The notes under the pieces: generated by a model
What the model was told of the DNA's origin: nothing
The model's input: only the letters and a program-made list of their open reading frames with translations
Databases searched by the model: none
Position numbers and translations under genes: made by a program
Shown here: piece by piece, positions 22,818-26,653 of the stretch
Position numbering within the stretch: position 1 is the stretch's first letter
How the letters are laid out: each line of letters begins with the position of its first letter
Assembly (NCBI RefSeq): GCF_017313105.1
Contig: NZ_JAFLND010000001.1
Location: 620,001-684,000 of the forward strand
Length of the DNA: 64,000 nt
Origin: [Muricauda] lutisoli (nom. illeg.)
GTDB taxonomy: Bacteria > Bacteroidota > Bacteroidia > Flavobacteriales > Flavobacteriaceae
Reading direction: 5' to 3'

Positions 22818-23672
22818 CTAAACCTTTTCCGCAGTAAGGGTGATATCCGGTTCTGTGAGGGTCAAAGATTTTACACGTCCTTTTTGTATGTTGAATGAGA
22901 TGGTCACCGAAGGTGTGCCATTATAAGTGAAAAGATTATCCCCAATTTTGTACAAAGCACCTCCAAATCCACCAATAGGACCTAGTGACAACAGTTTTCT
23001 CATATTTACATCTATGGTGAATCCTTCTTTGTCCCCGTTCCCATATTTGTAGTCCCCTAGGTACTTTTTCTGTTCTTCTGGGCTTACATCTATATAATCT
23101 GTGCCACTGGCGTTGCCCAAACCGGATAAGTAATCGACGGTCTGCTCCAGAGATTCAATTTCCTGCTTGGTCATGTTGTCCTTTGTACGCTCGCCGGCAT
23201 AGGCATGGTCCAACAAACTAATTCCATGGGGTCCTGTGGTTTCCTGTATTCCGGGTGTTGCTTCAATGACTGATTTTACCGCATTAAAATGGCCCAACAT
23301 CGCAAAAGTGAAAAGGGTAGGGCGAGCGCCTTTGCTCATCAAATACAGGGCGATATCTCTTCTACCTACATGGGATGCAGCTCCAATGGCCGATTCAAAA
23401 TCACCAAAACGCCACTCCCATACCGACCTTGACAGTTCAGGTCTTTTATCGACCAAGGATTTTACCCCATCCAGATCAAAATGGGATTTCCCTACGACAT
23501 CCTCAATGATTTCAGGAGGTATATTGGGGAAGTGTTTGGGCACATTAACGGTATCAGGGTCATTGGTATTACCCGCGGCCCATGTTACAGTCGGAATTGA
23601 CAATCCCAGCATGGTCAATGCAGATTTTTTCAAAACTGTTCTCCGATTGACTCTATTTGTTATGGTACCCAT
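22818..23672 (-). CDS. Tat-exported ankyrin-repeat protein
   Basis: 284 residues. The N-terminus is a twin-arginine signal: NRRTVLKKSALTMLG with Arg9-Arg10, hydrophobic segment, and cleavage near TWAAG. The middle (about 55-150) holds ankyrin-like helix pairs (DIALYLMSKGARPTLFTFAMLGHFNAV). The last 90 residues (after DVSPEEQKKYLGDY) form a beta-rich domain resembling the DUF3471-type tail seen on secreted serine hydrolases. Tat export implies folding before secretion, perhaps with a cofactor. It converges on the CocE gene and lies next to the DsrE/DoxX operon, separated from it by a terminator. No enzyme motif is seen, so a binding or scaffold role is the safest reading. Confidence 0.7.
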   Translation of the reverse strand: MGTITNRVNRRTVLKKSALTMLGLSIPTVTWAAGNTNDPDTVNVPKHFPNIPPEIIEDVVGKSHFDLDGVKSLVDKRPELSRSVWEWRFGDFESAIGAASHVGRRDIALYLMSKGARPTLFTFAMLGHFNAVKSVIEATPGIQETTGPHGISLLDHAYAGERTKDNMTKQEIESLEQTVDYLSGLGNASGTDYIDVSPEEQKKYLGDYKYGNGDKEGFTIDVNMRKLLSLGPIGGFGGALYKIGDNLFTYNGTPSVTISFNIQKGRVKSLTLTEPDITLTAEKV

Positions 23673-23690: not shown

Positions 23691-23725
23691 AAAGAAAAAG
23701 GGACGATGTTTCCATCGCCCCTTTT
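23691..23725 (-). terminator. Terminator of the DsrE/DoxX/metallophosphoesterase operon
   Basis: Stem AAAAGGGACGATG (23696-23708) with CATCGCCCCTTTT (23713-23725), one A-C mismatch, tetraloop TTTC. The A-rich flank gives a T tract on the minus strand, 20 bp beyond the DsrE stop. Confidence 0.75.
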
Positions 23726-23744: not shown

Positions 23745-24170
23745 TTACAACGTAATGCTCAAAAAACCATCTTTTTGAAGGTTAAAATTATACAGAATGC
23801 CATTGTCCACTACCCCCATTTCCTTGGGTAGTTTTGTAGCATCCACTCCAAATTTTTTAAGGGAAAAACCACACCCCAACAGTTTTATCTTTTCACTTTT
23901 TGCCATATCCAAAAACGGTTGCATTTGTTCTATGTCCGTAAGACCTTTTACGGTCTCTCCGCAGATGACTACGTGAAACTCCCCGAACTTGGCACCATCA
24001 CTGGCGGCTAGTTCATCAGCGGCTGATAAAATCGCCTTTAATTGCGGGATTTTTCGTGTAAGCACAATATAGTTGTTCTGTTCTTTGTTGTATGTTGTTT
24101 GTGCACTGACTGCCGTAAGCCCTCCAAACAGGATGATGGCCATTACGGCCAGAGTGATTAATTGTTTCAT
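23745..24170 (-). CDS. Exported DsrE/F-family protein
   Basis: 141 residues with a signal peptide (cleavage near VSAQ, residue 24) and a DsrE-like fold. The domain shows alternating strands and helices with the family's conserved Cys in KIKLLGCGFSLKKFG (Cys100); a second Cys is in VVICGETVKG (Cys70). DsrE-like proteins carry persulfide sulfur on that cysteine in sulfur oxidation or transfer; periplasmic versions are common in Bacteroidota. It is the last gene of a tight operon: 1 bp separates it from doxX, and 9 bp lie between doxX and the metallophosphoesterase gene. That context supports a periplasmic sulfur-handling role, which remains inference. Confidence 0.8.
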   Translation of the reverse strand: MKQLITLAVMAIILFGGLTAVSAQTTYNKEQNNYIVLTRKIPQLKAILSAADELAASDGAKFGEFHVVICGETVKGLTDIEQMQPFLDMAKSEKIKLLGCGFSLKKFGVDATKLPKEMGVVDNGILYNFNLQKDGFLSITL

Positions 24171-24171
24171 T

Positions 24172-24570
24172 TTATTGCTTTTTAAGTTTTGGATTCAGTA
24201 CAAAAAATAGGAGTCCGCCCAAAATGGCGATGTTCTTGAACAAGGGTCCTACAGTGGACATTTGTCCCACTTGAATGGTCAAGGTGATGGGAATCAGCAT
24301 AATGATCAATAAAATGGCCGCCCATTTGGTGCGAAAGCCTACAGCCAAGGCAATACCGGCTAACAGCATCACCACTCCAGAGACAATTACTGAGATTTGC
24401 GGTGAACCCAACAAGTTTCCAAGAACGCCAAACTTGGCATTTTCGATTCTAGCCACTGCTTTATCTGTATTGATCAAATGGTTTAAACTGGCTACAATGA
24501 AAATCAAACTTACCAAAACCCGTAGCACCGAAATTGAGCTGCGACTGACTTCAATAGTATTGTTTTGCAT
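24172..24570 (-). CDS. DoxX-family inner-membrane protein
   Basis: 132 residues with four membrane helices (about 15-33, 55-75, 82-100 and 110-126), the DoxX fold. The family is related to DoxD, the membrane subunit of thiosulfate:quinone oxidoreductase, but most members have no proven activity. Motifs SLNHLINTD and VGFRTKWAAILL are typical. Its place between a periplasmic DsrE protein and a SoxB-leaning metallophosphoesterase makes quinone-linked sulfur oxidation an attractive possibility. General redox or detoxification roles, as for other DoxX proteins, are the alternative. Spacing to both neighbours is under 10 bp, so all three are surely cotranscribed. Confidence 0.85.
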   Translation of the reverse strand: MQNNTIEVSRSSISVLRVLVSLIFIVASLNHLINTDKAVARIENAKFGVLGNLLGSPQISVIVSGVVMLLAGIALAVGFRTKWAAILLIIMLIPITLTIQVGQMSTVGPLFKNIAILGGLLFFVLNPKLKKQ

Positions 24571-24579
24571 GACCCTGTT

Positions 24580-26208
24580 TTAATGGAATTGATAATCGGT
24601 TCCCGGTAATTGGGACAATACATTTGGACCTAAATCCAACGCTTTGGCCCTTCCATCCAAACTTGGTGCAATGGTGCCTTTTTCTTTGAGGTATTCCTCA
24701 ATGACATCATGGATCGTATAGTCCATCACCTCGGTTTCAACTGTATTGGGCATACGGCAGAGCGTAGGTAAGGGTTCACCTTCTCTACGACATGCGGACA
24801 TGGTGTACAGTTTATCGTCCTGAATGGGCTCTCCTCCAATTTTTATGGAGGCTACGCGCTCTCCTTTGGGCTTATTGGCATAAAAGGTAAGTTCCATGCC
24901 CGAAAAACGTACCAACCAGCCACCAAAGCGTTCTGTGGGGTTTTGAGCGAATACATTGTGCAGTTCTTTTTCCAACCAATCTTTGATTTGTTGACCGCTG
25001 GCCTTTCCGATTTTCACTTTTTCATTTACGGGGAGCATGCTCCATAGGTCTGCCTTGGTAATGGGAGATTTCCCGCCTTCTTCAACCGAAATTGGCGTAC
25101 TGAACCGGAATCCGTTGGAAATGGAAACATCTACGCCTGTTTTCCATCGGGCAGCATCTGTGATAAAATTGTCCATGGGATTTTCCACCACAAAATAGCG
25201 GTAGAGCGGAACACTCGTATATCCTAAAACCTCATTGGCTTCCTCTTGGTACGGAGCGGTGGCTGTTTCAATGATTTGGGCCACTTTTTCGTCTGCAGCG
25301 TATTTTTTGGGGTCCACTTCCAAAAGATCATAAGCTTCACTGACTACTTCACCATCTTTTACCGTTAAGGTAAGCTTGCCCACAAAAGAGGCAAAAGCCC
25401 CTGGCTCGGTAACCTTGGTGTATTTGGCCTGTAAAGGTTTACGAATGCGTTCATGGGTGTCGTTCCCGAGCAGGTAGTCTACCCGCTCCAAAGCGGGGTT
25501 GTTGGCCAAATCGTATTGTTTACTGATGCCGATATGTGTCACCAAAAACAACACATCCACATTTTGATTATCCTTGAGTTCGGTAATCAGGGCTTCCAAA
25601 TTTGCATCGATAGGGTCAAAACGGATGCCTTCGCTGAAGGATGGGTTCTGACGCACCGGAATTTCGGGGTCGTTATAAGAAATAAACCCGAGTTTTACAC
25701 CTTTCAGTTCTTTTACAAAATACTGGGGAAATAAGGATTCTCCCGTGGTCTCGTGGTACATATTGGCGGAAATCACAGGGGTGTCGTACTGAGTAAGCAC
25801 GTCCATCATGGTTTGTTTGCCATAGACCACCTCCCAGTTACCGGGAATTAGAAAGTCGTAACCCATTTGTTGAATAATGGGGGAAAAGACTTTCCCTTCT
25901 GATAGGGCGGCATACGCGCTTCCTTGGATGAGGTCGCCACCATCCAAAATTAGAGTGCCTTCGGGATTTTTACTACGCTCGTCCTCAAAAAGGGTTTTTA
26001 CATGGGCCAATCCGCCCAATTTCCTAAAGGTGATCTGTTCGTCTTCCCAAAACAGTTCGTCGTGGGGGAACAGTTGACCGTGAATATCAGCGGTCTGTAA
26101 TATGGTTATAGTTTGTTCGGAGTCTTGTACAGGAGTTTTACCATCCTTGCAAGCGGATAGGGTTCCAATGAGCAGGGCGATAAGGCCCCAATGTTTTACT
26201 GATTGCAT
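24580..26208 (-). CDS. SoxB/5'-nucleotidase-superfamily metallophosphoesterase lipoprotein
   Basis: 542 residues with a lipoprotein signal (GTLSAC, Cys20). The N-terminal metallophosphoesterase domain shows D41xH43 in TADIHGQL, GGDLIQGS (Asp92), GNWEVVYG (124-127 region), VTHIG (His225) and NDTHER (His252). In ordinary 5'-nucleotidases the third motif is GNHE; the Trp here is as in SoxB thiosulfohydrolases (GHWEFTYG), although the Asn is kept. The C-terminal domain (about 330-542) carries YFVVENPMDNFITDAARW and a two-Cys segment SACRREGEPLPTLCR. In SoxB such an enzyme releases sulfate from protein-bound thiosulfate. No SoxXAYZ is nearby, so nucleotidase activity cannot be excluded. It is first in the operon with doxX and dsrE. 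Confidence 0.75.
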   Translation of the reverse strand: MQSVKHWGLIALLIGTLSACKDGKTPVQDSEQTITILQTADIHGQLFPHDELFWEDEQITFRKLGGLAHVKTLFEDERSKNPEGTLILDGGDLIQGSAYAALSEGKVFSPIIQQMGYDFLIPGNWEVVYGKQTMMDVLTQYDTPVISANMYHETTGESLFPQYFVKELKGVKLGFISYNDPEIPVRQNPSFSEGIRFDPIDANLEALITELKDNQNVDVLFLVTHIGISKQYDLANNPALERVDYLLGNDTHERIRKPLQAKYTKVTEPGAFASFVGKLTLTVKDGEVVSEAYDLLEVDPKKYAADEKVAQIIETATAPYQEEANEVLGYTSVPLYRYFVVENPMDNFITDAARWKTGVDVSISNGFRFSTPISVEEGGKSPITKADLWSMLPVNEKVKIGKASGQQIKDWLEKELHNVFAQNPTERFGGWLVRFSGMELTFYANKPKGERVASIKIGGEPIQDDKLYTMSACRREGEPLPTLCRMPNTVETEVMDYTIHDVIEEYLKEKGTIAPSLDGRAKALDLGPNVLSQLPGTDYQFH

Positions 26209-26275: not shown

Positions 26276-26653
26276 TTATGAATAGACCTTGAACTGCCTA
26301 TATAAAATATAAAGGGGAACTACCGAAGCTACTTTATGCTGTTGGGTAGCAAAAAAGTTGTTTTCGCTGTTTAATGTAGTATCAAATGGATCTATGGATA
26401 CGCCACGTAAAAGTACTGTGACCAGGCCTTGTGCATCTGTAGGTGAGCCCTCGGTGAGTTGAATGGCCTCGTAGGAAGCACAGGACTCGACCGACACGGT
26501 GGTTTTGAGTTTGTTGGATACCTCTGATTTTTCCAAACCTAGCGAGCGTTCCAAGGAATTACGAACTTTGCAGGGCGCCACCAATAACAGACCTGCCAAC
26601 AAAGCGATGGACAGGATGCGAATCTCAAATGTGGTGTTGTGGACGGGCTGCAT
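26276..26653 (-). CDS. Small membrane/exported protein, unknown (PCKVRN type)
   Basis: 125 residues. After a hydrophobic segment (about 12-27, LSIALLAGLLLVAPC) comes PCKVRN, then a Ser/Glu/Lys-rich stretch with one Cys (VSVESCASYEA). The tail is hydrophobic (VPLYILYRQFKVYS). I recall similar flavobacterial proteins with the same APCKVRN start and PLYILY end but no assigned function; that is memory, not a search. The only Met is at residue 1, so the start is secure if the frame is real. A perfect 16-nt palindrome lies 33 bp upstream, suggesting regulated expression. It is 67 bp upstream of the metallophosphoesterase gene on the same strand, so cotranscription with that operon is possible. Confidence 0.6.
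   Translation of the reverse strand: MQPVHNTTFEIRILSIALLAGLLLVAPCKVRNSLERSLGLEKSEVSNKLKTTVSVESCASYEAIQLTEGSPTDAQGLVTVLLRGVSIDPFDTTLNSENNFFATQQHKVASVVPLYILYRQFKVYS

Follow-up and report, generated by a model that had tools for sequence, protein, structure and literature searches.

What is the function of a compact gene unit that combines an exported DsrE-fold protein, a DoxX membrane protein and a lipoprotein metallophosphoesterase in a marine member of the Bacteroidota, a relative of Allomuricauda? In the window, by which we mean the whole 64,000-nucleotide stretch analysed here, these genes all lie on the minus strand in the order MPE1 (a lipoprotein SoxB-like metallohydrolase of 542 aa; 24580..26208), DoxX (132 aa, about four TM helices; 24172..24570) and DsrE-like (141 aa; 23745..24170), separated by 9 and 1 bp. 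The open reading frame coordinates agree with the spacing given in a first-pass annotation of this DNA. On the 3′ side of the DsrE gene, a strong terminator-like hairpin with a 13-pair stem and a T-run (23696..23725, minus strand) probably marks the end of the transcription unit. At the other end, a gene at 26653..26276 (minus strand), separated from MPE1 by 67 bp, encodes a small exported protein of 125 aa with two Cys residues and an N-terminal hydrophobic segment, for which the Pfam search returned no family. Because most related loci have a similar small two-Cys exported protein ahead of MPE1 or DoxX, we consider that the unit probably consists of four genes and starts with this one; the first-pass annotation had recognised the trio correctly, while its count of three overlooked the probable fourth gene. 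Such small proteins mark operon starts in related loci, and one form of them ends in PPPR-like motifs. The Bacteroidota −33/−7 promoter pattern was not found near the operon and was not clearly above chance across the window, and the Rfam search gave zero matches in the window. Downstream of the hairpin, the gene at 22818-23672 (minus strand) encodes a TAT-type exported protein that appears ankyrin-like by eye and has no Pfam match. In several Allomuricauda/Flagellimonas loci a gene of about this size also comes after the trio, and at locus L034 a Pfam ankyrin protein is encoded after MPE2, a relative of MPE1 described below.

We examined the motifs of MPE1, all of which are encoded on the minus strand. 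The protein carries the lipobox TLSAC and the Pfam domains Metallophos and 5_nucleotid_C, and the D-x-H (D41, H43; 26080..26088), GGD and GNWE motifs are present, in line with the lipoprotein metallophosphoesterase that had been described earlier; D-x-H is invariant among MPE1 proteins. The five-clade alignment confirmed GNWE at residues 123-126 (25831..25842), with Trp in place of the His of GNHE, as had been claimed. Nucleotidases and MPE3 have GNH(E/D) at this position, SoxB and most MPE2 proteins have xHW(E/D), and MPE1 keeps the Trp of SoxB xHWE as GNWE, without the one-residue deletion. At residues 248-252 (25453..25467), the usual metal-ligand His of GHxH/GHSQ is replaced by Asp to give GNDTH, which in the form G(N/A)DTHE is conserved in MPE1 only. 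The S-x-G-x-R-aromatic and GGxxxR motifs are common to MPE1, MPE2 and SoxB. The nucleotide-base loop, GGDG[FY] in UshA-type nucleotidases, is replaced by the C473 to C484 loop (24757..24792), where MPE1 carries CRREGEPLPTLC and an invariant, MPE1-specific Cys pair. The top NCBIfam model was SoxB (TIGR04486; 244 bits, E 2.5e-72), although the cut-off of 550 bits was not reached, and the nucleotidase models scored about half of the SoxB score or less. SoxB also came first in the PDB searches by sequence and by fold (structure model pLDDT 78). However, the margin over the nucleotidases in the fold search was small, indicating that fold alone is indecisive.

We then placed MPE1 in a tree of 49 proteins from five groups (MPE1, MPE2, true SoxB, MPE3 and nucleotidases), which leaves out two out-of-frame "SoxB" sequences (L153, L154) and two long branches (Halorussus, L215). 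MPE1 formed its own clade, sister to MPE2 (99/97), and MPE1 and MPE2 together grouped with true SoxB (100/98), with the nucleotidases outside, so the SoxB-type reading of the first-pass annotation withstood the tree that it had proposed. The AU test rejected a grouping of MPE1 with the nucleotidases (p = 0.0013), and did not reject a grouping of MPE1 and SoxB apart from MPE2 (p = 0.088). These results place MPE1 on the SoxB side of the family and not among the nucleotidases, yet the score of 244 against 550 bits, the separate clade, GNWE and the His-to-Asp change at the metal ligand set it apart from SoxB as curated. MPE1 resembles SoxB (TIGR04486; PDB 2WDC-2WDF) in its closest sequence model and structure, the Trp of the catalytic motif, the Arg motifs and its export; it differs in its Cys pair and lipoprotein anchor in addition to the clade, motif, metal ligand and score just named, and its locus is without SoxYZ and without a Sox operon. 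With the 5′-nucleotidases UshA, CD73 and CpdB it shares the two-domain fold, D-x-H, GGD and the dimetal frame, but the His that serves catalysis in GNHE is missing, as is the nucleotide loop, and it falls outside their clades. A nucleotide salvage role was considered and dropped.

The Pfam score of the window DsrE protein stayed below the cut-off (16.6 bits against a gathering threshold of 22.7; E 0.0094), while its counterparts at the same position in relatives passed, and a profile of its family reached DsrE structures. Its AlphaFold model (pLDDT 89) matched MTH1491, ST0148 and other DsrE-family structures, and C100 (codon 23871..23873, minus strand), the sole invariant Cys, aligned with the Cys of ST0148. 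Judged by this predicted fold and the conserved Cys, the protein is a member of the DsrE family, and its signal peptide bears out the exported DsrE-type protein of the first-pass annotation. Like DsrE, DsrF and TusD sulfurtransferases it has the fold and the conserved Cys; unlike them it is exported, it has no adjoining DsrFH or TusBC, and it is fused to DoxX in some relatives. The assignment of DoxX likewise stood (PF07681; 43.1 bits against a gathering threshold of 23.6; E 6.6e-11). However, the earlier description of DoxX/DoxD as quinone-linked was dropped, because DoxX differs from the DoxD of thiosulfate:quinone oxidoreductase: zero DoxD matches were found among the Pfam matches of the window up to E 1, and no DoxA partner was seen.

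We further studied whether the trio is conserved. Among 201 genomes of the family scored against the SoxB model, none reached the SoxB cut-off; 14 encoded a full-length SoxB-like protein (239-331 bits), 12 of these being of the window type, and nearly all remaining matches were short UshA-like proteins of about 90 bits. The trio is linked in most of the 12 window-type genomes, and the same linkage occurs in 80 named loci of Flavobacteriia, Cytophagia and Prolixibacteraceae-type bacteria. Across 91 Bacteroidota loci from many genera, DoxX was found within 8 kb of MPE1 in 82 and DsrE in 83 (about 90%), so the synteny check proposed in the first-pass annotation came out in its favour. The order within the trio differs between clades: small protein, DoxX, DsrE, MPE1 and TlpA-type thioredoxin is frequent in relatives, while the window has MPE1, DoxX, DsrE, as does the 99%-identical relative Allomuricauda profundi. 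In 13 of the 91 loci, mostly from Pontibacter and its kin, DoxX and DsrE are fused, with a hydrophobic segment ahead of the DsrE domain. Taken together, the linkage is beyond chance, and the altered gene order and the fusions indicate a functional linkage rather than just recent common descent; chance neighbourhood was considered and dropped.

In many relatives the trio lies in islands with one or more genes for an MBL-rhodanese persulfide dioxygenase, a rhodanese, TauE/SafE or YeeE with DUF6691, and further island partners are a Crp regulator, cytochrome bd, a fatty-acid-hydroxylase-like protein, TlpA and a TsdA-type cytochrome. The profile-based counts of persulfide dioxygenase neighbours may include single-domain rhodaneses, since the profile has rhodanese domains, and the BLAST-based neighbour labels are stricter. 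Plasmid Paks1 of Pontibacter akesuensis carries about 20 such genes in a single island, including MPE1, MPE2 and MPE3, and the Pontibacter cytochrome adjoining MPE1 has a SoxA/TsdA domain. On plasmid pRUNSL04 of Runella slithyformis the order is cytochrome c, DsrE, MPE1, porin, YeeE and DUF6691, with an MBL-rhodanese protein in addition. Since MPE1 sulfur islands are present on these two plasmids, and Paks1 is predicted to be mobilizable, the pathway may spread horizontally.

In a phylum-wide set of 396 genomes, 14 of the 20 with MPE1 encoded a TsdA-type cytochrome, against 30 of the 376 others (Fisher 1.3e-10; 1.4e-6 at genus level, with shared ancestry not fully corrected), and in nine genomes the cytochrome gene starts at most 4.4 kb from MPE1. 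The persulfide dioxygenase type was found in 7 of the 20 MPE1 genomes and 20 of the 376 others. SoxY over the cut-off was found in none of 13 MPE1 or MPE2 genomes and SoxZ in none of 17 MPE1 genomes, by the same searches that recovered both in Chlorobi-type genomes; a sub-threshold SoxY match in G074 (6e-4), which contains an internal stop, was disregarded. On pOB3b_01 of Methylosinus trichosporium the order soxZ-soxB-DsrE-DsrE was seen, so DsrE proteins also stand beside true SoxB.

The host genome carries a single MPE1, and its other sulfur genes lie elsewhere. Persulfide dioxygenase homologues were identified at C1:1469242 and C3:92347, and a region of contig C3 combines genes for Crp, a sulfate permease, a persulfide dioxygenase, two rhodaneses, an SQR-like protein and paired YeeE proteins. 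The diheme cytochrome encoded at C3:392040 matches TsdA structures in the PDB (1.5e-51), and its gene is followed by those of a TAT-type protein of 229 aa and another exported DsrE (C3, about 392-394 kb), a row that looks like a second sulfur cassette. Profile searches found neither SoxY nor SoxZ in the host genome. Parts of a SoxYZ-free route, namely TsdA, a SoxB-type enzyme and persulfide dioxygenase, are therefore present in the host at separate places. The core idea of the first-pass annotation, a SoxB-type sulfur system without SoxYZ, is well supported, MPE1 lying outside the nucleotidase clades and the trio being conserved. The pathway is not reduced, however, as that annotation had it, given the larger sulfur islands of many relatives and the TsdA, persulfide dioxygenases, SQR-like protein and YeeE encoded elsewhere in the host.

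A related route has been described in Erythrobacter flavus 21-3, where, according to PMC7608252, TsdA turns thiosulfate to tetrathionate, SoxB is proposed to hydrolyse tetrathionate to sulfate and zero-valent sulfur, and dioxygenases then oxidise the sulfur. That paper also counts Bacteroidetes among the genomes that encode homologues of tsdA as well as soxB. The likeness extends to a SoxB-type enzyme annotated as a 5′-nucleotidase, TsdA, a persulfide/sulfur dioxygenase, a scheme without SoxYZ, and three SoxB-like genes in a single cluster, as in the Pontibacter islands; the comparison is one of gene content. By contrast, PMC7608252 mentions neither DsrE nor DoxX, and the host parts are scattered. 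A SoxB-type enzyme acting without SoxYZ is already known from E. flavus, so the system is not wholly undescribed, the TsdA/SoxB/sulfur dioxygenase route there being close to it. For the DsrE-DoxX-MPE1 unit, the MPE1 clade and residues and the Bacteroidota islands, no description was found in the literature searched, which included few subscription journals, and a search linking DoxX, DsrE and thiosulfate gave nothing relevant. SoxAX and TsdA are noted to be relatives, and trithionate to be a small analogue on which SoxB is active (PMC5336275); short YeeE-type proteins are cited as importers of zero-valent sulfur (PMC11582611); and flavobacteria of marine sediments and vents are reported to oxidise thiosulfate (statement in PMC12345210).

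Based on this literature and the gene linkage, we infer that MPE1 would release sulfate from a sulfur chain that ends in a sulfonate and is either free, as tetrathionate, or attached to C100 of DsrE. The operon most probably specifies a group of exported enzymes that free sulfate from compounds derived from thiosulfate, in a variant of bacterial sulfur oxidation without the usual SoxYZ carrier. We think it more likely than not that it provides the hydrolytic step, outside the cytoplasm, of an oxidation of thiosulfate or tetrathionate that works without SoxYZ, DsrE being the probable carrier of the sulfur. A cytochrome of the TsdA type, encoded at another place in the genome, would oxidise thiosulfate, the product being tetrathionate or an S-thiosulfonate bound to a protein. 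MPE1, a membrane-anchored, metal-dependent hydrolase on the SoxB side of the 5′-nucleotidase superfamily, would cut the terminal sulfonate off as sulfate. The exported DsrE may accept or carry the leftover sulfane sulfur on C100, in the place of SoxYZ, and DoxX may hold DsrE at the membrane. The sulfane sulfur would then pass through YeeE/DUF6691 and rhodaneses to the cytoplasmic persulfide dioxygenase, which would yield sulfite. If so, there would be a route for oxidising thiosulfate or tetrathionate that can be tested in a large group of heterotrophs, and DsrE would act as a carrier outside the cytoplasm, besides the relay of sulfur inside it for which it is known. Because SoxYZ is missing and the key enzyme is labelled a 5′-nucleotidase, these genomes would escape surveys based on SoxB models or names.

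The tree with its AU test, the motifs common with SoxB, the missing GGDG[FY], the TsdA co-occurrence, the sulfur islands, the host partner genes, the missing SoxY and SoxZ and the E. flavus precedent argue for this reading. Against it stand the window trio, which adjoins no recognised sulfur-pathway gene, its partners being distant or on other contigs, the six of 20 MPE1 genomes in which TsdA was not found, the restriction of the closest persulfide dioxygenase type to 7 of 20, the loss of the metal-ligand His to Asp and the missed curated SoxB cut-off. Moreover, SoxB likeness does not prove the role, since two further SoxB-like proteins of E. flavus could be deleted without a phenotype, according to PMC7608252. 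A bolder form, in which this is a second carrier-bound thiosulfate oxidation on Bacteroidota chromosomes and plasmids, with exported DsrE as the SoxYZ substitute, loading by TsdA/SoxA-type cytochromes, hydrolysis by MPE1 and docking by DoxX, is possible but tentative.

A clearly less probable alternative to the main reading is that, as in E. flavus 21-3, MPE1 hydrolyses free, TsdA-made tetrathionate to sulfate and zero-valent sulfur, the part of DsrE and DoxX being limited to detoxifying or relocating the released sulfane sulfur, with no covalent carrier. The published genetics of TsdA, SoxB and Sdo without SoxYZ in E. flavus 21-3, the TsdA and persulfide dioxygenase of the host genome and the frequent adjacency of MPE1 and TsdA are all consistent with it. 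However, no partner is tied more tightly to MPE1 than DsrE and DoxX, also in genomes where TsdA lies far off or was not found, and these ties and the exported DsrE beside the host TsdA fit better with a direct role. Since DsrE and DoxX track MPE1 more closely than TsdA does, and an exported DsrE adjoins the host TsdA, we tentatively favour a DsrE-bound substrate.

It is unlikely that the unit, instead of yielding energy, serves in defence or repair against reactive sulfur or against sulfonates bound to thiols (protein S-sulfonates, S-thiosulfonates), with MPE1 cleaving them, DsrE taking the persulfide, and DoxX and the small Cys protein recycling thiols. The heterotrophic hosts, the compact unit, the TlpA-type thioredoxin and TauE sulfite exporter linked in relatives and the fact that DoxX family members work in oxidative-stress complexes would agree with such a role, but the links to a TsdA-type cytochrome and, in some genera, to cytochrome bd suggest that electrons go to respiration. 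Least probable is an ordinary 5′-nucleotidase or other phosphoesterase lipoprotein with incidental neighbours, for which the fold and domains common to UshA and CD73 and the public annotation of relatives as bifunctional metallophosphatase/5′-nucleotidase would speak, and which the tree, the AU test, the lost GNHE and GGDG[FY] and the conserved sulfur context oppose.

Proteins of the MPE2 clade were also seen in Alphaproteobacteria and Bacillota, at plasmid pSA3 of Novosphingobium resinovorum and at loci L175 and L210, near genes for TlpA, CcdA, MBL, YeeE or cytochrome bd, pointing to a wider, unnamed SoxB-like clade beyond the Bacteroidota. On a plasmid of Halorussus halophilus, an archaeal 5′-nucleotidase-like protein lies between TauE and an MBL-fold gene, and may be distantly related to the system.
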